From positions 1 to 42,649 of the forward strand of contig JAGOZU010000020.1 of NCBI GenBank assembly GCA_018058545.1: a stretch of 42,649 bases of DNA. Reading direction: 5' to 3'. The translations under genes were made by a program, and so were the position numbers. Under the pieces are notes generated by a model. The model had not been told where the DNA came from. It saw only the letters and a list, made by a program, of their open reading frames with translations, and did no database searches. Positions within the stretch are counted from its first letter, which is position 1. Each line of letters opens with the position of its first letter. Of the stretch, positions 7,865-24,976 are shown piece after piece. The stretch is from Promineifilum sp. (GTDB taxonomy: Bacteria; Chloroflexota; Anaerolineae; Promineifilales; Promineifilaceae).

Positions 7865-8968
7865 ATGAAGCGAATTGCATTGTTACTTACCGGACTGTTG
7901 CTGCTGGCCCTGATGGTCGCCTGCGGCGGCGGCGCGGCCCCGGCCGCAACCGAGGTCCCGGCTGCGGCTCCGACCGAAGCGCCGGCGGCCGCCGAGCCGA
8001 CCGAAGCGCCTGCCGAAGCTGCAAATTGCAGCGACGAGGGCGTTCTGTGCATCGGCCTTGTCACGGACGTCGGCGAAGTTGACGACAAATCGTTCAACCA
8101 GTCCGCTTGGGAAGGCGCGCAACAGGCGGCCGAAGCCCTTGGCGCGGCCGAGGTCAACTACATCGAGACGGCCAACGCCACGGACTACGGCGCCAACATC
8201 GCCTTGTTCGCCGACCAGGGTTATGACATCATCGTGACCGTCGGTTTCGCCATGGGCGAGGCGACGATCGAAGCCGCCGGGAAATATCCCGATGTCGACT
8301 TCATCGGTGTCGACCAGTTCCAGGGCGAAGCTCTGCCGAACGTCACCGGTCTGGTCTTCAATGAGGACAAGGCTGGTTACATGGCCGGCGTGCTGGCCGC
8401 GTCGCTGAGCCAGAGCGGCACCATCGCCTCCGTGCTGGGCACCAACCTGGTCCCGCCGGTCGTGGCCTTCAACGAAGGCTATCTGACCGGTGCGCGTTCG
8501 GTTAACCCCGACATCAACATCATCGCCACCTACCATCCCGGTGGTCTGGATGTGGCCTTCACCGACCCCGAGTGGGGCGCGACGACGGCCCAGCAGGCTA
8601 TCGACCAGGGCGCGGACGTTGTGTTCGGCGCGGGCGGCAAGACGGGCAACGGCGCCCTGATCCAGGCCGCCGGCAATGAAGGCGTCTGGTGCATCGGTGT
8701 GGACAGCGACCAGTGGGGCACTGTTCCCGAGGCCCATGCCTGCCTGGTTTCGAGCGCGATGAAGCTCATCACCCCCGGAGTTGTCGACCTGGCCACGATG
8801 TCGGTTAACGGCGAATTCCCCGGCGGCAACTTCTTCGGCGCCGTGGGTCTCGCTCCGTTCCACGATCATGAGGCTGCGGTCTCGCAAGAGATCAAGGACC
8901 TGCTGGAAAAGACCAACGCCGGTCTGCTGGATGGCTCGATCAGCACCGGTTACAACCCCGGCGGCTAA
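7865..8968 (+). CDS. BMP-family ABC transporter substrate-binding lipoprotein
   Basis: This 367-residue protein begins with a lipoprotein signal peptide (hydrophobic LLLTGLLLLALMVAC) with lipidation Cys20. A flexible Ala/Pro/Thr/Glu linker with PTEAP repeats follows (about 24-58). The mature part is a BMP/Med periplasmic-binding fold (CIGLVTDVGEVDDKSFNQSAW start, GVDQFQGEALPNVTGL, KAGYMAGVLAA, GADVVFGAGGKTGNGAL). The family, which includes PnrA/TmpC and BmpA, binds purine nucleosides or related compounds and passes them to BPD_transp_2 permeases. The two permeases and the ATPase follow on the same strand. Nucleoside uptake is inferred from the family; the ligand is not proven. Confidence 0.93.
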   Translation: MKRIALLLTGLLLLALMVACGGGAAPAATEVPAAAPTEAPAAAEPTEAPAEAANCSDEGVLCIGLVTDVGEVDDKSFNQSAWEGAQQAAEALGAAEVNYIETANATDYGANIALFADQGYDIIVTVGFAMGEATIEAAGKYPDVDFIGVDQFQGEALPNVTGLVFNEDKAGYMAGVLAASLSQSGTIASVLGTNLVPPVVAFNEGYLTGARSVNPDINIIATYHPGGLDVAFTDPEWGATTAQQAIDQGADVVFGAGGKTGNGALIQAAGNEGVWCIGVDSDQWGTVPEAHACLVSSAMKLITPGVVDLATMSVNGEFPGGNFFGAVGLAPFHDHEAAVSQEIKDLLEKTNAGLLDGSISTGYNPGG

Positions 8969-9039
8969 TCTGACAAGAGGCATGAACAGAGGCAGGTTTG
9001 ACTATCCGCTTCTTCAACCTCATTGCTAGATGAAATAGA

Positions 9040-9076
9040 AATGTGCGACGTGTCGGGATTCGGCACGTCGCACATT
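9040..9076 (+). terminator. Perfect 13-bp hairpin between the BMP and permease genes
   Basis: AATGTGCGACGTG (9040-9052) pairs perfectly with CACGTCGCACATT (9064-9076) around an 11-base loop, 70 bases after the lipoprotein stop and just before the permease ribosome site. The T tract is short (GTTTATA), so it is more likely a partial terminator or an mRNA-stabilising hairpin that keeps the binding protein more abundant than the membrane subunits. Confidence 0.65.
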
Positions 9077-9082
9077 GTTTAT

Positions 9083-9088
9083 AGGAGG
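9083..9088 (+). promoter_or_regulatory. Ribosome binding site that sets the permease start
   Basis: AGGAGG lies five bases before ATG 9094. A GTG at 9088 is in frame but overlaps this site, so ATG 9094 is preferred. Confidence 0.8.
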
Positions 9089-9093
9089 TGGTT

Positions 9094-10212
9094 ATGGCGA
9101 CGGCCCCCACACCGACCAGCACGGATAACCGGGCAGCAATGACCTTGCGACACATTTGGCGAAGTATCAGCGTGCCGCTGGTTGCCGTTATTCTGGGTTT
9201 GATTATCGGAGCAATTTTACTAATCGTATCCGGGGTGAACCCGATTGTAGCCTATGGCGCCCTTGTCAAGGGAGCTTTCGGCTCGCCTGCCGCCATCCAA
9301 AGGACTCTGGAAAAAGCGACGCCATTGGTATTCAGCGGTCTGGCCGTCGCTTTTGCCTTCAAGGGCGGCCTCTTCAATATCGGCGCGCAAGGGCAATTGC
9401 TCGTCGGCGCGGTCGTCGCCGCCTACGTGGGCTTCGCCGTCGAAGGGCTCCCGGCCATCATTCACGCGCCACTGGCCCTGTTGGCCGGTGGGCTGGCCGG
9501 CGCGCTCTACGGTTTTATTCCCGGCGCGCTGAAGACCTACACCGGCGCGCATGAGGTCATCGTGACCATCATGCTGAACTACGTGGCCATTAATCTCACC
9601 GATTTTCTGGCCGATGGCCCCTGGAAAGATCCGTCGCCGACCAACATCGTGGCCCGCACCGCCAAAATATTACCTTCGGCCAAGTTACCCACTTGGGGAA
9701 GCGTACCGTCGGGTTTCATTCTGGCGGTGATCACCGCCGCCATCGTCTGGTGGCTACTCTATCGAACCACCCTCGGTTATGAGATTCGCACGGTGGGGCT
9801 TAACTCCAGCGCCGCGCAATATGCCGGAATCCGGGTCGCCAAGATCGTCATCCTGTCCATGATGATCAGCGGTTTGCTGGCCGGTTTGGGCGGCGCCGTC
9901 GAGACACAGGGCATCAACGGTCGATTCCAGCCCGGATTTAACACCGGCCTCGGGTTTGACGGCATCACCGTCGCCCTGCTGGGCAAGACCAGCCCCTTCG
10001 GCGCGATCCCCGCAGCGCTATTGCTGGGCGCCATGCGCGCCGGATCGAGCCAGATGCAGTTCAGCGCGGGGGTGGCAACCGAAATCACCGATGTCATCAC
10101 CGCCGTCATCCTGTTCTTCGTCACCGCCGACGTCATCGTCAAAGCGCTCATCCGCCAACGCGGCACGGATGATACCCAGGTCACGCTCAGCACCGGCTGG
10201 AGCAGCCATTAG
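9094..10212 (+). CDS. BMP-type ABC transporter permease (BPD_transp_2), subunit 1
   Basis: This 372-residue integral membrane protein has about 8-10 helices. The first is near residues 27-50. The conserved BPD_transp_2 stretch FKGGLFNIGAQGQLLVGA (about 88-105) and the GAHEVIVTIMLNYVA coupling region are typical of the YufP/NupP side of nucleoside-type importers. It forms the channel with the next gene and is driven by the ATPase at 11340. The start ATG 9094 was chosen because AGGAGG stands at 9083-9088. Confidence 0.92.
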   Translation: MATAPTPTSTDNRAAMTLRHIWRSISVPLVAVILGLIIGAILLIVSGVNPIVAYGALVKGAFGSPAAIQRTLEKATPLVFSGLAVAFAFKGGLFNIGAQGQLLVGAVVAAYVGFAVEGLPAIIHAPLALLAGGLAGALYGFIPGALKTYTGAHEVIVTIMLNYVAINLTDFLADGPWKDPSPTNIVARTAKILPSAKLPTWGSVPSGFILAVITAAIVWWLLYRTTLGYEIRTVGLNSSAAQYAGIRVAKIVILSMMISGLLAGLGGAVETQGINGRFQPGFNTGLGFDGITVALLGKTSPFGAIPAALLLGAMRAGSSQMQFSAGVATEITDVITAVILFFVTADVIVKALIRQRGTDDTQVTLSTGWSSH

Positions 10213-13740: not shown

Positions 13741-15726
13741 TCACGGGACGTCGATCGTCACGTATTCCGCGCCGTCTGCCGTGATCAACCGCCGCCTGTC
13801 AGCCGGGTTGTAGACGCCCAGGCGCAACTGCCCGGTCGTCTCCTCAAGAGTCAATATCTGGATGTCGATGTCGCCTGTCCGCCAATGTTCGGCCGGAGCG
13901 CTCAGCCCGTCGGCCTGCGAGACGGTCGCGTCCCCTTCAACCGCATGGAGGAACAGACGCCGGGGGCCGTCGGCCGGGGCGAGCACCCGCCAGAACGTGA
14001 CCACCTCGCAGGTCCCGCCGACCTTGCAGCCCTCGTCCAGGGTATAGCCGAAGAACGATAGCTGGTCGTCGAACACCGCTTCGGCCGTGTTTTCCGGCGC
14101 GATGGCCCAATCCTCCGGGACCTCATACAGGATGAAATCGCCCTCCAGGCGGCCGTCGGGCACGATATCGCTCAGGGCGGGAGCCAGAGGCAGAATACTT
14201 GGGACAACTATGCGAATGGCTTTCCCGTCGGGCGATGCCGGTATAACCATCCCCTGCTCCGGCTGGAAGTAGCGCAGCGATAAATCGTCACGGCGCAGGC
14301 TCAATTCCATCGTCGGGGGATCCATCGTCTCCGGCGTCCAGCCACCGACGGCCACCGGCCCATCGTCCGGCGAATGGTCCAAATAAGCGGCCGCCTCGGT
14401 CAGCGCGGCCTGCCAGACAAAACGCACTTCGTCGTTGGCCGGCCAGACGCGCCACAGCCCGACGGCCGTGCTCGCGGCCGAATAGAGCAACAGCCCCCCC
14501 AGCCCCCATGTAACAACCCTTGTTATTAATTGTGTGGATAACTTATCCCATACTGTGGATAAGTAGGGCACAATGTGCATAACTTCCAGGGGGAAGAACA
14601 TCAAAACGGGCAGCAGGTTGATGATGCGGATGCTGCTGGGGGCGTCCGTGGTGACCAGACTGGGAATGACCGATGCCGCCAGCCACAGCAGGATGAAGGC
14701 GTGGCGTCTGTCCCGCCAGCGCCACAGGCTAAACACGACCCCGGCATAAAAGAGGACGGCCATGAGCGGGTCGAACACCGGCCGCCCGGCGATGTTCTGC
14801 CGCCAGAGCGGATCGCCGTCGATGCCGAACATGCCGGCGATCTTCAGCCCGTTTTGCAGGACCGGTCGCGCGTCCCCCGCGAGGAGGGCGCGCAAGGGCG
14901 CATCCACTTCGGCGATACGAATCTCGGATCCGGGATTGGTCAGGAGGAACAAGGCCAGCGGCGCGGCCACGAGGGCCAGCATCAGCCAGAACAAGGCGAC
15001 GCCGCGCCAGTGCCGCCGCAACACGGGCCGATGGAACAACGCCAGGTAGGCCATGTAGAGCGCGAAGAATATCGGCACGGCGCGCGCGGCCATGTAGGTG
15101 TGGAGGCTGAGACCGGCAAACAAACCGGACAACATCAGGAACGCGGTAGCATGAATGTTCCTTCTCTGCCCCTCTTCTCCTCTGCTCCCCCGCTCCTCTG
15201 CTCCCCCGCCCCCCTGCTCCTCTACCCCCCGAATCCATAGCCACGCCGCCAGCCCCGAAAAGACCGGCAGGGAAATCGCACGCAAGGCCAGGCGGCTATA
15301 GAACACCGGCCAAAAGAGCACCGCCAGAAACGCGGCCGACCAGAGACCGGCGCGCTCGCCGAACATGCGCCGGCCCAGGGCGTAGCTGACCGCCACGAGG
15401 AGCACCCCGAAAAAGGCCGACGGCAAGCGAAGGGCCAGGGCGTGGTCGCCGACCAGCGCGCCGATGATCGCCTGAATATAGTGATAGAGGGCCTCGTGAC
15501 CGTAGGCCTCAGTGAAATAGATGGCGTGACCGCCGGCCAGAATATCCTGATTGATTAGCCAGTGGGCCACCTCGTCGTGCTCCAGGCCGGGCGGGGTCGC
15601 ACCGACGGGTGTGGGAAAGTTGTCGAGGTCGATGACGCGAAAGGCGGTGGCGACCAGAAGGATGACAACGAGCAAGGCGATGGAGCGCAGCCGGTGCGTG
15701 GCCGACGTTCGATGGCCGGATGTCAT
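13741..15726 (-). CDS. GT-C membrane glycosyltransferase (GT39/ArnT-like)
   Basis: This protein of about 661 residues has roughly 10-12 membrane helices in its first two thirds. The acidic motif GLEHDEVAHW in the first outer loop is the place where GT39/GT83 enzymes keep their catalytic acidic pair. The C-terminal 250 residues form a soluble beta-rich domain. Such enzymes move sugar from a polyprenyl-phosphate carrier to protein or glycolipid outside the membrane. The frame is open further upstream, but ATG 15726 is chosen because it overlaps the stop of the preceding gene as ATGA (15723-15726), implying translational coupling. A low-complexity stretch at about residues 166-188 (EEQGGGGAEERGSRGEEG) is coded by a 16-base repeat and looks inserted. 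Confidence 0.8.
   Translation of the reverse strand: MTSGHRTSATHRLRSIALLVVILLVATAFRVIDLDNFPTPVGATPPGLEHDEVAHWLINQDILAGGHAIYFTEAYGHEALYHYIQAIIGALVGDHALALRLPSAFFGVLLVAVSYALGRRMFGERAGLWSAAFLAVLFWPVFYSRLALRAISLPVFSGLAAWLWIRGVEEQGGGGAEERGSRGEEGQRRNIHATAFLMLSGLFAGLSLHTYMAARAVPIFFALYMAYLALFHRPVLRRHWRGVALFWLMLALVAAPLALFLLTNPGSEIRIAEVDAPLRALLAGDARPVLQNGLKIAGMFGIDGDPLWRQNIAGRPVFDPLMAVLFYAGVVFSLWRWRDRRHAFILLWLAASVIPSLVTTDAPSSIRIINLLPVLMFFPLEVMHIVPYLSTVWDKLSTQLITRVVTWGLGGLLLYSAASTAVGLWRVWPANDEVRFVWQAALTEAAAYLDHSPDDGPVAVGGWTPETMDPPTMELSLRRDDLSLRYFQPEQGMVIPASPDGKAIRIVVPSILPLAPALSDIVPDGRLEGDFILYEVPEDWAIAPENTAEAVFDDQLSFFGYTLDEGCKVGGTCEVVTFWRVLAPADGPRRLFLHAVEGDATVSQADGLSAPAEHWRTGDIDIQILTLEETTGQLRLGVYNPADRRRLITADGAEYVTIDVP
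15161..15230. repeat. Polypyrimidine tract with two 16-bp tandem units inside the GT-C gene
   Basis: CTCCTCTGCTCCCCCG occurs twice in tandem (15177-15192 and 15193-15208) within a 70-base nearly pure pyrimidine tract; the mRNA strand is purine. The same unit with one change recurs at 39479-39494 in another membrane protein gene. The tract is read in frame as a Gly/Glu/Arg-rich loop. Confidence 0.8.
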
Positions 15727-18700
15727 TTTGCGCTCCAGCCCAATCGCCGCGTCAACCCCGCGGGCAGGATCGCCGCCATGGCCTGACGTTCCTGCGGCTC
15801 GATGATGTGCAGAACGGTCAGCCCGGCCAGATACACAATCACGCCGAGCGCCAGAGCCACCAGGAGATGCAGCCGGTTGCCGGCCCACATGACGGCCATC
15901 ATAACCGCCGTCAGGAGAACCGGCCGGGCTACCAGACGGAGCCAATCCATCCCCGCGCCCCGTTGCCGCAAATAGTGGGCGAACATGACCAGCAGGACCA
16001 CCTCGGACAGGATCGTCGTGATGCCCGCGGCGACGAAACTGAACCGCGGGATGAACAGGTAGTTGAACAGGATGTTAAAGCCGACGGCCACGACAAAGGC
16101 CCGCGGCTGCATGCGCTCCAGTCCCAGGGCGATGAGCACGTAGTTGGTGACGCTGTTCAGCCAGCCGAAGGGGATGGACCAGATAACGATCTGGAGGGCG
16201 ACGGCTCCCTGAGGCAGGAATTCGGGGCCACCCAACACGCGGATGAGCAATGGCGCGGCGAAGGTCGTCAGCGCGGCGATGGGCAACGCCAGCAGCAGCA
16301 TGATCTTGAGCGACATGCGATACATGCGCCGGGCGGAATCCATATTCTCCTTGATGGCGCGGGAGATAATCGGAAAGAGCGCCAGGGTGAAATAGGACGG
16401 GATGATCTGCAGGGCGTTGAACCATTTCCAGGCGCTGTTGTACCAGCCGACAACCCGCTCGCCGTCGGGCAATAGCTGGCGCAAAAGCAGGACGTCGATG
16501 GAGATGAAGACGGTCTGCAACAGATGGATGAGCATCAGCGGGAAGCCAAGCCGCAGCATGTCGCGGATCATCGGCCCGTCGAGCGTCCACGGGCCATGCA
16601 GCTCGAATCGGCGCAGGGCCAGAATCGACAACAGGAGGAGCGTGACTACATTGACGACGATGGAGACGGCCGCCAGGCCCACAAAGCTGAACCCGGCCAA
16701 AAGCACGGCAACGCCCAGCCCCACCTTGAGGATGGTCGAAACGGTCGACATGGCCGCCGGGATCTCGGCCTCCTCATAGACATAGAACAAGCCGGAGACG
16801 CCCAGGGCCAACCCGGAGAACACCATGCCGATCATCATGAGGATAATGGCGGCGATCTCGGCCGAACTGAGCGGGTTTGACCCTCGTGAAGCGGTAACGA
16901 GATAGACCACGACCGGCAGAGCGGCGACGGCGGCGGTGAATATCCTCAGAACGCTGGAGTTGAGCAGGAACCGGCCCGCTTGCGAGCGGTCTTGGGACAC
17001 GTCACGGATAAGCAGGATGTTGAGGCCATAGTTGGCGACGATCTCAAACAGCCCGGCGGTGGCGATAGCCGTGGCGAAGCTGCCGGCGGCCGCCGGGCCT
17101 AGCACGCGCAGATAAAAAGCGGCGAACACGAAGTCGATGCCCTTGTTGAACAGGTTGAGGGCCATCGGCGCGGCGCTGTTTTTGGCCACGCTGCGCGTGG
17201 TGGAGGCGGTCGAATCCGGTCGATAGAAGCGCCCCCAGGCCCAGACCCCAAGGACGAAGATCAGCAGGCTCAAGCCCATGAACGACATCAACCCGCCGAG
17301 CTGAAAACTGCGCGGGCTGTAGCGGAAGCGCACCGTCCAGTCGCCCGGCTCAAGAGGAACGCCGCGGAAGTTGCCGTTGACGCGGGTGATCTCGCTCTCA
17401 ATTTCCGACTCCTCGCCGCTGCCGGCCGGGCGAACGTAGACCCGCCAGCCGTTGAAATAGCTGTCGCCAAGGATGAGCCACGACGGCTCATCGACCGAGG
17501 CGGTGACTTCCACCTGGTTGTTGGTGGCGCTATCGACGGCCGCCGGAATCAGCTCGGCCGGTTGCGCCGGGGCGGCTGTCGCCACGTCCGATTCAATGAC
17601 GACATAGCGGCGCGGGTCATAGTCGCCGGTCAGGGCTGCCAGGTCATCGGGAACGTGAACCTCGGCCGTGCGCGGCAAGGTGTAGGCCCGCGGCGCGGCG
17701 GCCAGATTTTCGTAGATGACCACCCCCTCTCCCTCCCAGACGGGGCGGTACTTGGGGGAGGTGATCGATTCGGCCGAGATGACGTATTTGACGGCCAGCA
17801 CATCCAGCAGCGGGGAATCGAGCGCCGCGGGGGAGCCGATGGGCTGGATGCGGTTGAATTGCAGCCCGTTCTGCGGTTCGATGGCCGCCATATAGTCGGT
17901 GAATTGGCGGGGGATGATGGAGTCATAGCCACGAATGTCGGCCAGATCGTGGAGCCAGGGCGTGTTGGCGTTCAGCGTGCCCGCGCCGGTGGTGTCGTAG
18001 GTGGTGATGCGCCATTGGCCGGGCTGTTCGTTCAGCCAGCGCACAGCCGCCGGGGTGTGTTCGAGCAAAGCGGGATCGGCGGCGGCATGGAAGCCGGCGT
18101 TAGCGGCGTAGAGGTCGAAGATGATCAGCCCGCAGGCAAGGACGATCCACAGCCGGGTTCGTCGCGCCAAGCGGAGGACGATCCCCGACACGGCCAACAA
18201 GCCGCCGAAAAGCAACAATTGCCAGAAGAGATAGCTATAGAACGCCTCGGCCGAAGGGAAGGCATACTCCGCCCCGGCCAGAGCATGGAAGAGCCGCTCG
18301 ACCAGCGGCCGCGCAGCATCGAAGAACACGCGGCTGAGAACCGTAAGCACAATGACAGCGCCACCAGCGAAGATGGCAAGCCAGGGCAATAAGGAGGCTG
18401 GTTTGAGAGATCGGAAGACCGATCTGCCCTCCTGCCCCTCTGCCCTCCACTCATCCGCGCCAAAGCCGGCCAGCACCGCCACCGACAACGCCAGAGGAAA
18501 GACCCAGCGAAACGGGGTATGAAGCTGGTCGATAAACGGCAAGCCATAGTAGAGAATGGCGTAGAGTGGCGTGCCGAAGATGAAGGCCAGGGAGAAAAAC
18601 GCCAACCCGGCGAAGAACAACGCATGAGCGCGACGCGCGGCCGTCCCGGCACGCCGGCGGCCGAGGGCCGTCAAGCCAATCCCGGCCAGCAGCAACGGCA

Positions 18701-19895
18701 GGATGCCCATATAGGCCGCCCCCTCGACGTAGTTCTTCGTCCCCCAACTCGTCGTGGCCGGGCCATACGGGTTTGGCTCGCCATGGTAGTTTACCCCGAC
18801 CGGTACGACGTCGCCGGTGAAGGCGTCGCGGATGGTGTGGTGGGTGGGGTTGCCGAAGAAGTTTGGCAGCAGGAAGGTCAGGGCGTTGCGCGGGGGGTAG
18901 GCCCATCCGCGCACCTCCTCGAACGAGGCCGACCCGGCGCGAAAGTTGACCCGGCCGACCTCAACCAGCGGCACCAGCTGGAGCGAGCCGATGAGCAAGC
19001 CGGTGGCGACCATGGCCGAAAGCCACAGGGCGAGATGCAAGGCACGCGAGACGAGGGTTGAATTTGGAGCGCGCGGCTCTTTCGTGGCACGATCCGCGAC
19101 ACGAATTTCGTCTCTCGAATTGCGAACCTCTATCAGGATGCGCCAGGCGGCGAAGAGGGCCATGATCAGCAGGGTGTAATAGGTGAACTCGGCATGCCCG
19201 GCGAGGACCTGGCAGCCCAGGGCGATAGCCCCGGCCGCCAACCACAGGATGGCTCGACCGCGGCGCTCGGCCGGGCCGTTGGCCGTGACGACGACACGGT
19301 CGATACAGCCGAGGAGAAACGGCAACCAAACGACGGCCGCGGCGATCATGGGGAATACGGCCGCGCTGATGACCAGGAATTGCGCCCCCTGATAGACAAA
19401 TCCGGACAGGGCGGCCCCGCCCCGCCGCATGCCCAGGATGCGGCCGAAGAGATACATCGACACACCGGCCAGCCACACCTGACTAAGGGCAAACCAGCCA
19501 TAGGCCTTGGCCAGAGGCACGACCAGAAAGATAAAGCCGAACGGATAGAGAGCCGCATGTTGGCCATTAGCCAGGAAGGGCGCTCCGGCGAACAGATAGG
19601 GGTTCCACAGAGGGAGATCACCCTCGCTGAGGCTGGTGAGGACGAAATTCTTCCAGGCGTAGTTCTGGATGATCAGGTCGCTGATGAGGGCGTTATGGGG
19701 CGTAACAACGCCGGACGTCGAAAGGCCCAACTCGGCGGCCGACGCACGCCAGGGCGGCCATTGAAACAGTTTATCGGCCGGGAGCATCGTCCGCGAGCCG
19801 ATCGTGACCGAGGCATAGAGCCAGAGCGGCAGGATGAGGTAAGCCAGGATGATGAGGAAATCCGGCCGGAGCGAGCGAAGACGGGCGCGAATCAT
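15723..19895 (-). CDS. YfhO-like membrane protein fused to a polysaccharide flippase
   Basis: This 1390-residue protein is two families in one reading frame. Residues 1 to about 885 match YfhO/GT-C-like membrane proteins: a first helix near 13-30, the motif LFQWPPWR and FLTSLSEGDLPLWNPYLFAG-type outer loops, a dozen or so helices, then a large soluble domain (about 590-860) and one last helix. Residues about 905-1390 are an MVF/MATE-type oligosaccharide flippase (MALNLFNKGIDFVF from Met911, 12-14 helices), like Wzx. YfhO proteins are linked to glycosylation of lipoteichoic acid in Firmicutes; the flippase would move lipid-linked sugars across the membrane. ATGA overlaps tie it to the V4R gene (19892-19895) and the GT-C gene (15723-15726). 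A separate start at Met911 cannot be excluded. Confidence 0.85.
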   Translation of the reverse strand: MIRARLRSLRPDFLIILAYLILPLWLYASVTIGSRTMLPADKLFQWPPWRASAAELGLSTSGVVTPHNALISDLIIQNYAWKNFVLTSLSEGDLPLWNPYLFAGAPFLANGQHAALYPFGFIFLVVPLAKAYGWFALSQVWLAGVSMYLFGRILGMRRGGAALSGFVYQGAQFLVISAAVFPMIAAAVVWLPFLLGCIDRVVVTANGPAERRGRAILWLAAGAIALGCQVLAGHAEFTYYTLLIMALFAAWRILIEVRNSRDEIRVADRATKEPRAPNSTLVSRALHLALWLSAMVATGLLIGSLQLVPLVEVGRVNFRAGSASFEEVRGWAYPPRNALTFLLPNFFGNPTHHTIRDAFTGDVVPVGVNYHGEPNPYGPATTSWGTKNYVEGAAYMGILPLLLAGIGLTALGRRRAGTAARRAHALFFAGLAFFSLAFIFGTPLYAILYYGLPFIDQLHTPFRWVFPLALSVAVLAGFGADEWRAEGQEGRSVFRSLKPASLLPWLAIFAGGAVIVLTVLSRVFFDAARPLVERLFHALAGAEYAFPSAEAFYSYLFWQLLLFGGLLAVSGIVLRLARRTRLWIVLACGLIIFDLYAANAGFHAAADPALLEHTPAAVRWLNEQPGQWRITTYDTTGAGTLNANTPWLHDLADIRGYDSIIPRQFTDYMAAIEPQNGLQFNRIQPIGSPAALDSPLLDVLAVKYVISAESITSPKYRPVWEGEGVVIYENLAAAPRAYTLPRTAEVHVPDDLAALTGDYDPRRYVVIESDVATAAPAQPAELIPAAVDSATNNQVEVTASVDEPSWLILGDSYFNGWRVYVRPAGSGEESEIESEITRVNGNFRGVPLEPGDWTVRFRYSPRSFQLGGLMSFMGLSLLIFVLGVWAWGRFYRPDSTASTTRSVAKNSAAPMALNLFNKGIDFVFAAFYLRVLGPAAAGSFATAIATAGLFEIVANYGLNILLIRDVSQDRSQAGRFLLNSSVLRIFTAAVAALPVVVYLVTASRGSNPLSSAEIAAIILMMIGMVFSGLALGVSGLFYVYEEAEIPAAMSTVSTILKVGLGVAVLLAGFSFVGLAAVSIVVNVVTLLLLSILALRRFELHGPWTLDGPMIRDMLRLGFPLMLIHLLQTVFISIDVLLLRQLLPDGERVVGWYNSAWKWFNALQIIPSYFTLALFPIISRAIKENMDSARRMYRMSLKIMLLLALPIAALTTFAAPLLIRVLGGPEFLPQGAVALQIVIWSIPFGWLNSVTNYVLIALGLERMQPRAFVVAVGFNILFNYLFIPRFSFVAAGITTILSEVVLLVMFAHYLRQRGAGMDWLRLVARPVLLTAVMMAVMWAGNRLHLLVALALGVIVYLAGLTVLHIIEPQERQAMAAILPAGLTRRLGWSAK
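18424..18452. repeat. Short polypyrimidine tract inside the YfhO domain
   Basis: A 29-base C/T-rich tract (CTGCCCTCCTGCCCCTCTG start) codes the charged loop EWRAEGQEGRS at about residues 481-491. It resembles the tracts at 15161-15230 and 39448-39507 but is shorter and lacks the exact 16-base unit. Confidence 0.5.
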
Positions 19896-20527
19896 GCGAT
19901 CGGCTCTTTCTCAATGCGGAATACGCACATCGCGGCCCCGGCCGCATGACATTCGGTCTGGGTGACGCGAAACTCCTGGCCCCGGCCGAAAGAACTGAGG
20001 GCTTCCTGAAGTAATCCGACGTTCAGGTGGCATAGCGGCGAGCCGGCTTGCTGCCCCCAGCAGGCGGCGCAACGCTCGACGGCATAATCGAAATAGGTCC
20101 CCCGATCGTGAACATGGTGGGACTGATCGCTATGTTGGGTCAACACGCGGGCCAGGGCGGGGACGCCGATCTTCAGCCGCGTCGGCAGCGGGAGCAGGCG
20201 GAAGGCCAGGTCGTTGAAGCCGGTCGGCATATCAAAGGCGCCCTCGATGCGACCGTACATGGCCCGCCCGCTACGAAGCGCCAGCCCGCGTGCCCCGCGC
20301 GGGCCGTAGATCATCTCCATCGCCTGATTGAGATTCGACGCCACGGAGATGTCGAAGCCCAGGTCAAGGTCATTGGGGGGTGGCACCTGGATGTAGTAAC
20401 CCATATCAGTCAGGTTCAGGAGGGCGTTCAAACCGTTGCGGCCGATAGTGTCTTCCAATGATTCCAGAAAGATGCGGCCGAGGCGGTTGCACAGGTAGTA
20501 GCCGCTGAGAGGGATCAGGTTTCTCAC
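19892..20527 (-). CDS. V4R-domain protein
   Basis: In this 211-residue soluble protein the C-terminal half (about 145-207) is a V4R (4-vinyl reductase-like) domain with Cys153, Cys156, Cys166, Cys193 and Cys201; the spacing TECHAAGAAMCVFRI is the family signature and suggests metal binding. V4R domains occur in BchJ, which was linked to bacteriochlorophyll vinyl reduction, and in transcription regulators and archaeal proteins as small-molecule sensors. The N-terminal half (DIGRNGLNALL-like helices, PNDLDLGFDI) may be the matching alpha/beta part. It is the first gene of an ATGA-overlapped set with the YfhO-flippase fusion. A sensory or lipid-binding role in surface glycan synthesis is only inferred. 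The 135-base gap upstream to ruvA has no clear signal. Confidence 0.75.
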   Translation of the reverse strand: MRNLIPLSGYYLCNRLGRIFLESLEDTIGRNGLNALLNLTDMGYYIQVPPPNDLDLGFDISVASNLNQAMEMIYGPRGARGLALRSGRAMYGRIEGAFDMPTGFNDLAFRLLPLPTRLKIGVPALARVLTQHSDQSHHVHDRGTYFDYAVERCAACWGQQAGSPLCHLNVGLLQEALSSFGRGQEFRVTQTECHAAGAAMCVFRIEKEPIA

Positions 20528-22700: not shown

Positions 22701-22796
22701 CAAAAGGAGCGATTTGCCACTCACGCGAGCCGCGACGCGCGCCGCAAATATCATGAGCAACCCGTCGCTTTCATCCGCCCTCGCCCGCATTTCAGC

Positions 22797-22802
22797 TATA
22801 AT
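22797..22802 (+). promoter_or_regulatory. -10 element directly before the GH1 gene
   Basis: TATAAT ends eight bases before ATG 22810, so the message would begin at or within a few bases of the start codon (leaderless) or run a short way to ATG 22825. I see no clear -35 at 16-18 bases. Confidence 0.5.
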
Positions 22803-22809
22803 AGCGCCC

Positions 22810-24138
22810 ATGGCTCACGCAACAATGACTTTCCCGCCCGACTTTCTGTGGGGCACGGCTACCTCTTCCTATCAGGTCGAGGGTAACAACACGAATAGCG
22901 ACTGGTATGAGTGGGAGGTGATGGGCAAACCCATCAAGGGCGAGCTGGGCGCGGGGCGGGCCTCCGATTGGTGGGAAAACGCCGAACGCGATCTCGACAT
23001 CGCCGCCGAGATGGGCAACAACGCCCACCGCCTGTCGCTGGAGTGGAGCCGCATCGAACCGGAGCCGAGCGTCTTTGACGACGCGGCCATCGCCCGCTAC
23101 CGTGCGATCCTGCAGGGATGCCACGACCGCGGCCTGGAGCCGATGGTGACCCTTCACCACTTCAGCAATCCGCTGTGGCTGGTGGAGAAGGGGGATTTCA
23201 ACAACGACATCATCATCGATTACTTCCGACGCTACACGGCCAAGGTGGTGGCCGAGCTGGGCGATCTGGTCCCGAAATGGATCACGTTCAACGAGCCGGT
23301 AACCTACCTCGTGATGCGCTATCTGAACCGCGTGTTCCCCAATCCCGGTCGCTACGGTTTTGGGTCGCTGTTCGAAGCCGTCAACAACATGCTGCGTTGC
23401 CATGCGGCCGCCTATTACGTCATCAAGGAAGCCTACCCTGACGCGCTGATCGGCACGGCCAATAATATCCAGGTGTTCGAGCCGCGACCGGGCGGCAACT
23501 TCATCGACCGTCAGTGGGCCAGGACCGTGCGCCGGATCTATAACAAAAGCTGGCCGGACGCCCTCCACACCGGCCGGTATCGCGGCTTTGTCAACGGCAA
23601 GTTCTTCGATGGGTTGGCCGGGACCTATGACTTCATGGGCATCAACTATTACACCCGCTTCTATCTGCACTTCCCGCCGCCACCGGGTTTCGTGGATCAG
23701 GATTGGGGACCGGATGCCACCGTCAGCGACGGCAATTACGGCGAGGTCTACGCGCCCGGTCTCTTCCAGGTGATCGACACCGTCTGGAAGCGCTATCAGC
23801 GGCCGATCTACATCACTGAGAACGGCGTGCCCGACGCGACCGATCGGTTGCGGCCGGGCTTTCTGCTGAGTCACCTGCAGCAGGTATGGCGGGCAATCAA
23901 CTTTTGCTATCCGGTGATGGGCTACTATCACTGGTCTCTGGTCGATAATTTCGAATGGGAGCGAGGCTGGACACAACGCTTCGGACTAGTGGCGATCGAT
24001 CCGCTGACGCAGGAGAGAACCTGGCGGCCGAGCGCCCGCCTCTACCAGGAAATTTGCCGCAGCTATACCTTGAGTGACGAGATGGCGGAGCGATACGCGC
24101 CGGAAATGCTGCCGATCATGTGGCCGGGAGAGCTATAG
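22810..24138 (+). CDS. Glycoside hydrolase family 1 (beta-glucosidase-like)
   Basis: This 442-residue (beta/alpha)8 enzyme has the N-terminal signature FPPDFLWGTATSSYQVEGN, the acid/base Glu162 in TFNEP and the nucleophile Glu337 in YITENG, plus FMGINYYTR and a WSLVDNFEW sugar-binding end. It should cleave beta-glucosides or beta-galactosides with retention. There is no signal peptide, so it acts inside the cell. A longer in-frame start at 22714 exists, but ATG 22810 or 22825 fits the family and the -10 at 22797. The GT2 gene follows after 55 bases. Confidence 0.95.
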   Translation: MAHATMTFPPDFLWGTATSSYQVEGNNTNSDWYEWEVMGKPIKGELGAGRASDWWENAERDLDIAAEMGNNAHRLSLEWSRIEPEPSVFDDAAIARYRAILQGCHDRGLEPMVTLHHFSNPLWLVEKGDFNNDIIIDYFRRYTAKVVAELGDLVPKWITFNEPVTYLVMRYLNRVFPNPGRYGFGSLFEAVNNMLRCHAAAYYVIKEAYPDALIGTANNIQVFEPRPGGNFIDRQWARTVRRIYNKSWPDALHTGRYRGFVNGKFFDGLAGTYDFMGINYYTRFYLHFPPPPGFVDQDWGPDATVSDGNYGEVYAPGLFQVIDTVWKRYQRPIYITENGVPDATDRLRPGFLLSHLQQVWRAINFCYPVMGYYHWSLVDNFEWERGWTQRFGLVAIDPLTQERTWRPSARLYQEICRSYTLSDEMAERYAPEMLPIMWPGEL

Positions 24139-24193
24139 CCAATCTATTGTGGGCGGATCGGCCACAAAACAGTATGATCCGATCCGATTGCCG

Positions 24194-24976
24194 ATGAGTG
24201 ACAAACTTGCCATTTCCGCTTTTTTCCCGGCCTACAACGACGCGGGGACTATCAGCAGCATGGTCATCACCGTGTTGCTGACGCTGCGCGAGCTGACCGA
24301 TGACTATGAGGTCGTCGTGGTCAACGACGGCAGCAAGGACCACACGGCCGTCGTTCTGGATGAGCTGGCCCGCATCTACCCCGGTGAGGTGCGCATCATC
24401 CACCACCCGCAAAACCGCGGTTACGGCGGCGCCTTGCGCACCGGCTTCGCCAGCGCCACCAGGGACTGGATCTTCTACACCGACGGCGACGCGCAATATG
24501 ATCCTCGCGAGCTAAAGGACCTGGCCGCGCTGGTCAGCGACGACGTGGACTTTATCAATGGCTGGAAGATCGAGCGCAACGACCCCCTGCACCGCATTAT
24601 CATCGGCCGCATCTATCAGTACACCATCAAGCTGGCCTTCGGGCTGAAGCTGAAGGATGTCGATTGCGATTTCCGACTCATGCGCCGGGAGGTGTTTGAC
24701 CGGGTGCAGTTGACCAGCGACAGCGGCGTCATCTGCGTGGAGCTGATGAAAAAGGTGCAGGACGCCGGTTTTCGCCTGGCCGAGACGCCCGTCCATCACT
24801 TTCACCGCGCCTACGGCAAATCACAATTCTTCCGCTTTCGTCGCCTGGCCGAGGTTGCCCGCGACCTGACCAAACTGTGGATACGGCTGGTCTGGCGCAA
24901 AGAAGAAGGGCAACCGGTCGCGGCCGACGAATCCGCTCAACCCTGTAACCAATCCTATGCCGACGGTCCCCACTGA
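24194..24976 (+). CDS. Glycosyltransferase family 2 (DPM1-like)
   Basis: This 260-residue GT-A fold has the nucleotide-binding PAYND at 12-16, VVNDGSKDHT at 43-51, the NRGYGGALRTGF loop, and the DxD metal motif DGD at 97-99. It resembles polyprenyl-phosphate mannosyl/glucosyl transferases that make the sugar donors used by GT-C enzymes such as those in this window. There is no membrane helix. ATG 24194 is preferred over an upstream in-frame ATG (24074) that lies inside the GH1 gene. Its last 20 bases overlap the epimerase gene, so the two are probably coupled. Confidence 0.92.
   Translation: MSDKLAISAFFPAYNDAGTISSMVITVLLTLRELTDDYEVVVVNDGSKDHTAVVLDELARIYPGEVRIIHHPQNRGYGGALRTGFASATRDWIFYTDGDAQYDPRELKDLAALVSDDVDFINGWKIERNDPLHRIIIGRIYQYTIKLAFGLKLKDVDCDFRLMRREVFDRVQLTSDSGVICVELMKKVQDAGFRLAETPVHHFHRAYGKSQFFRFRRLAEVARDLTKLWIRLVWRKEEGQPVAADESAQPCNQSYADGPH

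Follow-up and report, generated by a model that had tools for sequence, protein, structure and literature searches.

A single reading frame joining a glycosyltransferase to a flippase

The locus described here raises the question of whether an extracytoplasmic glycosyltransferase and a polysaccharide-type flippase are genuinely encoded as one protein and, if so, what such a protein may do. The Promineifilum sp. contig JAGOZU010000020.1 (assembly GCA_018058545.1), positions 1 to 42,649 of which are referred to as the window, carries on its minus strand a single open reading frame (ORF) of 1390 codons (15723-19895) with an ATG start and a TGA stop. Its product of 1390 amino acids (aa) comprises a YfhO-like glycosyltransferase half of the GT-C type, a linker of approximately 10 to 15 residues, and a complete MOP flippase (Wzx/MurJ type). 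An initial inspection of the nucleotide sequence (here, the sequence-only reading) had recognized a YfhO-like part and a flippase within this one frame, a description with which the ORF, the Pfam matches, the one-frame orthologues, and the structural models all agree.

When 59 related genomes were searched with the fused protein and the junction was counted from the match coordinates, 51 genomes proved to carry it inside one open frame, including genome G048, which is assembled as one contig. The remaining eight are mostly represented by contig fragments, G040 and G050 appearing to be without the fused gene; in G022, the frame is interrupted within the YfhO half and not at the junction. A scan of all genome species yielded 517 relatives, the best 80 of which were taken as named loci. 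These 80 all belong to the Chloroflexota (Promineifilum, Thermoflexus, Caldilineaceae, Aggregatilineales, Ardenticatenia, and other Anaerolineae), and 79 of them carry both halves in one frame, the exception (L206) being cut by a contig end. The same two-domain architecture, for which the sequence-only reading had proposed a search in the Anaerolineae, is thus present there, and full-length fused proteins of 1321 to 1442 codons (36 to 42% identity) also occur beyond this class in a sample of the phylum. The fusion is ancient and conserved, extending phylum-wide in the Chloroflexota. It is common but not universal in its class, because nothing closely matching the fused protein turned up in two families (f23 and f25) whose genomes are otherwise nearly complete; these families lend themselves to a comparison of envelope chemistry.

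The window derives from a metagenome-like draft assembly of 185 contigs, a circumstance in which two neighboring genes might be joined through an assembly or sequencing artefact. Such an origin is considered extremely improbable, as the identical single frame recurs in dozens of independent assemblies, the one-contig genome among them, and a frameshift or assembly join of two genes is ruled out on this basis. The spacing between W887 and N906, which spans the linker (residues 891-905, positions 17181-17225, ending in the conserved motif RVAKNS, here SVAKNS), is 18 to 22 residues in 132 of 136 aligned sequences. The possibility that homologues are always two proteins, with the flippase initiating internally at Met911, had also been raised by the sequence-only reading. 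The many homologues with both halves in one frame speak against the former, and the internal start is ruled out: the corresponding column holds M in 72 and I in 54 of the 136 sequences, no purine-rich ribosome site precedes it, and the free-standing flippases begin 35 to 65 residues earlier or lack that methionine. A search of open-licence papers found no report of a fusion between YfhO and an MOP flippase.

Fold and conserved residues of the YfhO half

A predicted structure had been suggested as a further check. The chain was modelled with AlphaFold as two overlapping parts, residues 1-905 and residues 191-1390, which returned a GT-C and an MOP fold, respectively, for the two halves. The first part, based on a 65-sequence alignment, was modelled with a predicted local distance difference test (pLDDT) score of 94.4 and a predicted template modelling (pTM) score of 0.93. 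At the sequence level, the YfhO profile PF09586 matches the window protein below its cut-off (5.9e-5; 22.1 bits against 28.5), with residues 789-870 corresponding to the end of the profile; 6 of 10 orthologous N-terminal halves exceed this cut-off (40 to 84 bits, top score 83.9). A sequence search of the Protein Data Bank (PDB) with this half returned no match.

Structural comparison of the model aligned residues 1-732 with the STT3 subunit of the yeast oligosaccharyltransferase (Z 22.1 over 462 residues, 4.9 Å), and further matches to the N-terminal half were obtained for AftD (Z 20.3 over 583 residues, 5.5 Å), PMT (Z 19.8), PglB (19.2), DPY19 (16.9), and ArnT (15.8). On the evidence of the model, the YfhO half has a GT-C (GT-C_A) fold, the transmembrane domain of which is assigned to residues 1-605 (18081-19895). 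It is followed by a predicted extracytoplasmic beta-sandwich (residues 735-860, 17316-17693), of which residues 736-858 weakly match 8iu9 (Z 6.3) and resemble the accessory beta domains of GH66 and GH51 enzymes, and by the last transmembrane helix of this half (residues 862-890, 17226-17312).

Most of the matched GT-C enzymes use polyprenyl-phosphate or dolichol-linked donors. The top rank of the STT3 subunits (Z 22) could be taken to mean that the YfhO half transfers an oligosaccharide en bloc, in the manner of an oligosaccharyltransferase or a polymerase, to a protein or another glycan after the MOP half has flipped its lipid-linked form. This is regarded as improbable, given that GT-C enzymes with monophosphate donors score nearly as highly (20 for both AftD and PMT) and that the conserved neighbor of the fused gene, described below, is a monosaccharide-donor synthase.

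The first long non-membrane segment contains D41, at which position D or E is found in all 133 sequences covering it, and D73, which is D in 134 of 134, in keeping with the conserved acidic residues that mark the first extracytoplasmic loop of GT-C_A enzymes; H234, E236, and R463 are invariant or nearly so among the 136 sequences. Unfused YfhO-like relatives share part of this set, with P95, W97, G104, R152, and R463 kept in 16 of 16 and D73 in each of the 12 for which this position could be aligned, and most of them retain D73, H234, and R463.

Fold and placement of the flippase half

The flippase domain occupies residues 900-1376 (15768-17198). Three Pfam profiles match it over residues 904-1280 with scores above their cut-offs, namely PF01943 (3e-22, 79.8 bits), PF13440 (4e-16, 59.5 bits), and the MatE profile PF01554 (2e-13, 50.7 bits), and MurJ models fall below theirs (TIGR01695, 28.9 against 235.6 bits; PF03023, 25.6 against 27.4 bits). 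Here, too, a sequence search of the PDB gave no match, and structural comparison placed the model next to WzxE (Z 32.0 over 400 residues, 3.2 Å) and MurJ (Z 30.0 over 470 residues, 3.5 Å). N906, R930, R964, and R984 are conserved in 136 of 136 sequences. The C-terminal half belongs to a transporter family with known flippases of lipid-linked sugars, and translocation of a glycan is its predicted function here. Both halves are complete and retain the polar and charged residues conserved in their families; transfer of a sugar from a polyprenyl-linked donor is the activity predicted for the YfhO half.

Along the model, the last YfhO helix leads through the linker into the first flippase helix. 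Residues 191-1390, modelled as one chain with a pLDDT of 91.4 and a pTM of 0.87, suggest a defined mutual placement of the two halves. This bears on the proposal that each half performs a task of its own and that their fusion serves only equal production and co-placement, for which it may be said that some parts of the phylum have the flippase half but lack a full YfhO half. Against it stand the pTM value and the retention, among fused proteins down to approximately 32 to 40% identity, of both the linker length and the two sets of conserved residues; independent functions are accordingly thought quite unlikely. The fusion suggests that flipping and transfer are physically coupled in one long conserved protein.

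A candidate donor synthase and a proposed mechanism

The gene directly upstream could be read at 123 distinct fused loci, and in 44 of these it encodes, on the same strand, a GT2 glycosyltransferase resembling dolichol-phosphate-mannose synthase (DPMS). The distance to the fused gene ranges from -73 to 205 nt, often with a 4-nt overlap. These GT2 proteins are mostly 57 to 82% identical to each other, exceeding the similarity among the fused proteins, and the closest solved structure is the Pyrococcus dolichol-phosphate mannose synthase (PDB 5mlz; 7.7e-31). A DPMS paralogue is present in 55 of the 59 related genomes, that of the window included. As each genome holds just one or two DPMS-like genes, we infer that finding one next to the fused gene at a third of the loci is not due to chance. 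Among 20 free-standing flippase loci, no flippase gene adjoins a member of this upstream GT2 group, locus L064 having a weak relative approximately 3 kb away.

An immediate upstream gene of this type fits a pathway of flipping and transfer, and we propose, as the somewhat favored explanation, that the MOP half flips the sugar donor of the YfhO half, such that two of the three components of an extracytoplasmic glycosylation system, the flippase and the final transferase, reside in one polypeptide. A cytoplasmic GT2 of the DPMS family would charge polyprenyl phosphate with a sugar (possibly mannose or another hexose), the synthase being supplied by the directly upstream gene in approximately one-third of loci and from elsewhere in the genome in the lineage of the window. 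The MOP half would then carry the lipid-linked sugar to the outer leaflet, where the YfhO half, through its GT-C domain and extracytoplasmic beta-sandwich, would hand it to a cell-surface acceptor, possibly a glycoprotein or a polysaccharide of the envelope. With both activities in one chain, the flipped donor would arise beside the enzyme using it. The sequence-only reading had envisaged a channelled flip-and-transfer machine; the fusion, both folds, the family, and the upstream GT2 fit this idea, while the pathway itself, that is, donor type, flipping direction, transfer, local hand-over, and channelling, is what we infer from them.

Several observations weigh against donor flipping. The lineage of the window does not keep a DPMS gene beside the fused gene; its genome encodes the DPMS copy elsewhere (G000:C169:961-1698, 48% identical), and, in its family, the position that the DPMS gene has in other loci is occupied by a gene for either a V4R protein or a response regulator. 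The persistence of the flippase half alone in some lineages implies that it can act without the YfhO half, and the placement of the two halves relative to each other in an AlphaFold model is not proof of a hand-over. Characterized Wzx and MurJ flippases, moreover, mostly carry undecaprenyl-diphosphate glycans and not monophosphate sugars. Finally, of 20 genomes checked, 19 contain a GtrA-type flippase gene at another site; another carrier could therefore flip the donor, and the MOP half is ruled out as the sole possible donor flippase.

The last two points also lend themselves to the main alternative to donor flipping, in which it is the acceptor, in the form of an undecaprenyl-diphosphate-linked oligosaccharide, that leaves through the flippase half. 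On its emergence, the YfhO half would decorate it by means of a polyprenyl-phosphate sugar flipped by another carrier, for example, a GtrA protein. Wzx and MurJ, the nearest folds, both act on diphosphate-linked glycans, yet the neighborhood lists show a DPMS-like GT2 and no travelling glycan-assembly cluster, which would include an initiating phosphoglycosyltransferase and Wzy. Acceptor export is, on balance, judged unlikely. An extension of the donor-flipping mechanism, in which the fused protein runs the whole carrier-lipid cycle locally by flipping the sugar out, handing it to the GT-C site, and returning the spent polyprenyl phosphate, is offered as a decidedly speculative idea with little expectation that it holds; if true, it would spare the shared carrier pool from drain by this pathway.

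Evolutionary history of the fusion

In a FastTree phylogeny of the YfhO half, the fused sequences form one clade with a support of 100. The tree of the flippase half, many deep forks of which are weak, intermixes free-standing homologues from other classes with the fused ones. Certain free-standing flippases carry the last YfhO helix (862-890) alone at their N-terminus; L065, for one, starts with a single helix and ...AWLWRRFYRDD...RTVAKNS, which corresponds to the end of the YfhO half and the linker. Locus L062 (4930-7584) encodes an 884-aa flippase with an internally shortened YfhO part and is apparently an intermediate in the loss of the GT-C half. An M17 aminopeptidase gene (57 to 59% identical) lies directly upstream of the fused genes of L098 and L122 and of the free flippase genes of L064, L069, L070, and L079, which therefore share the same chromosomal position. 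The likely history is that the two parts were fused once, long ago, and that the GT-C half was afterwards lost more than once, the reverse order being less likely because remnants of YfhO exist.

Comparison with known glycosylation systems

Three-component systems in which a polyprenyl-phosphate sugar synthase works together with a flippase and a GT-C enzyme are established (PMC8035078, PMC7389260). Pentofuranose transfer in Citrobacter youngae involves the polyprenyl-phosphoribose synthase ORF15, a MATE-family flippase, and the GT-C enzyme ORF12 (GT136), which bears a carbohydrate-binding module (PMC11127046). The same three roles and an additional extracytoplasmic domain resembling a carbohydrate-binding one are found in both systems, whereas the flippase and GT-C enzyme of C. 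youngae are separate proteins and its synthase is of the phosphoribosyl type, as opposed to one chain with a DPMS-like neighbor. The CsbB-GtcA-YfhO system of teichoic acid glycosylation in Bacillus, Staphylococcus, and Listeria (PMC7389260, PMC8035078) likewise combines a final transferase of the YfhO family with a GT2 donor synthase, but relies on a small, separate GtrA-type flippase, GtcA, in place of an MOP flippase fused to YfhO. In the GacI-GacK-GacL system of Streptococcus pyogenes, a Wzx-type flippase (GacK) flips a lipid-phosphate sugar for a GT-C enzyme (GacL); these are encoded by separate genes, and GacL is of the PMT_2 and not the YfhO type (PMC8035078). What is new relative to these systems is the presence of flippase and GT-C enzyme in one polypeptide.

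Fusion of an enzyme to a lipid flippase in one membrane protein is exemplified by the lysyl-phosphatidylglycerol synthase-flippase MprF, which differs from the present protein in that its folds are unrelated, synthesis precedes flipping, and its substrate is a phospholipid. The Pyrococcus furiosus DPMS (PDB 5mlz) also bears a GtrA-type membrane domain; in that protein, it is the synthase that carries the GtrA-like part, in contrast to the present one, in which the flippase is attached to the downstream transferase.

The pairing of a flippase with an extracytoplasmic glycosyltransferase is usually guessed from gene neighborhoods. A fusion that occurs naturally across a phylum identifies the two partners outright; it predicts an MOP flippase that serves a YfhO-type GT-C enzyme and allows both flipping and transfer to be assayed on one protein. 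Chloroflexota envelopes are reported to be layered, with polysaccharide or protein, and to lack an outer-membrane pathway (PMC13319060); the fusion offers a handle on these poorly known structures.

Genes flanking the fused gene

Downstream of the fused gene, a GT39/PMT_2-like GT-C gene (13741-15726, minus strand; PF13231, 1.2e-10) starts in an ATGA overlap with its stop codon (15726-15723). The translational coupling noted in the sequence-only reading is thus real in the window; the synteny is local to the family of the window and a few others, and the GT39-like gene is ruled out as a general partner.

Positions 24074-24976 on the plus strand, 4.2 kb away from the fused gene, encode an ArnC/GtrB-like GT2 (PF00535, 1.4e-29), for which the best NCBIfam model is of the ArnC type (4e-22, below its cut-off). 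Its candidacy as the conserved partner is not supported, as it is only approximately 25 to 30% identical to the conserved upstream GT2; it is possibly a local donor synthase, its membership in the system being uncertain. A gene for a family 1 glycoside hydrolase (22714-24138) is close to it, and a GT2 with 62% identity to it is located 3 to 4 kb from the free-standing flippase of L064.

Immediately upstream of the fused gene and overlapping its start by ATGA is a V4R-domain gene (19892-20527, minus strand; PF02830, 1.2e-11). In many relatives, a V4R-domain gene precedes the fused gene at a distance of no more than approximately 2 kb, and its product may be a sensor of small molecules that is connected with the locus. 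In L100, the gene preceding the fused one (7942-9843) encodes a proton-antiporter-like membrane protein (PF00361), and genes of a similar size are situated upstream in L123, L124, and L128.

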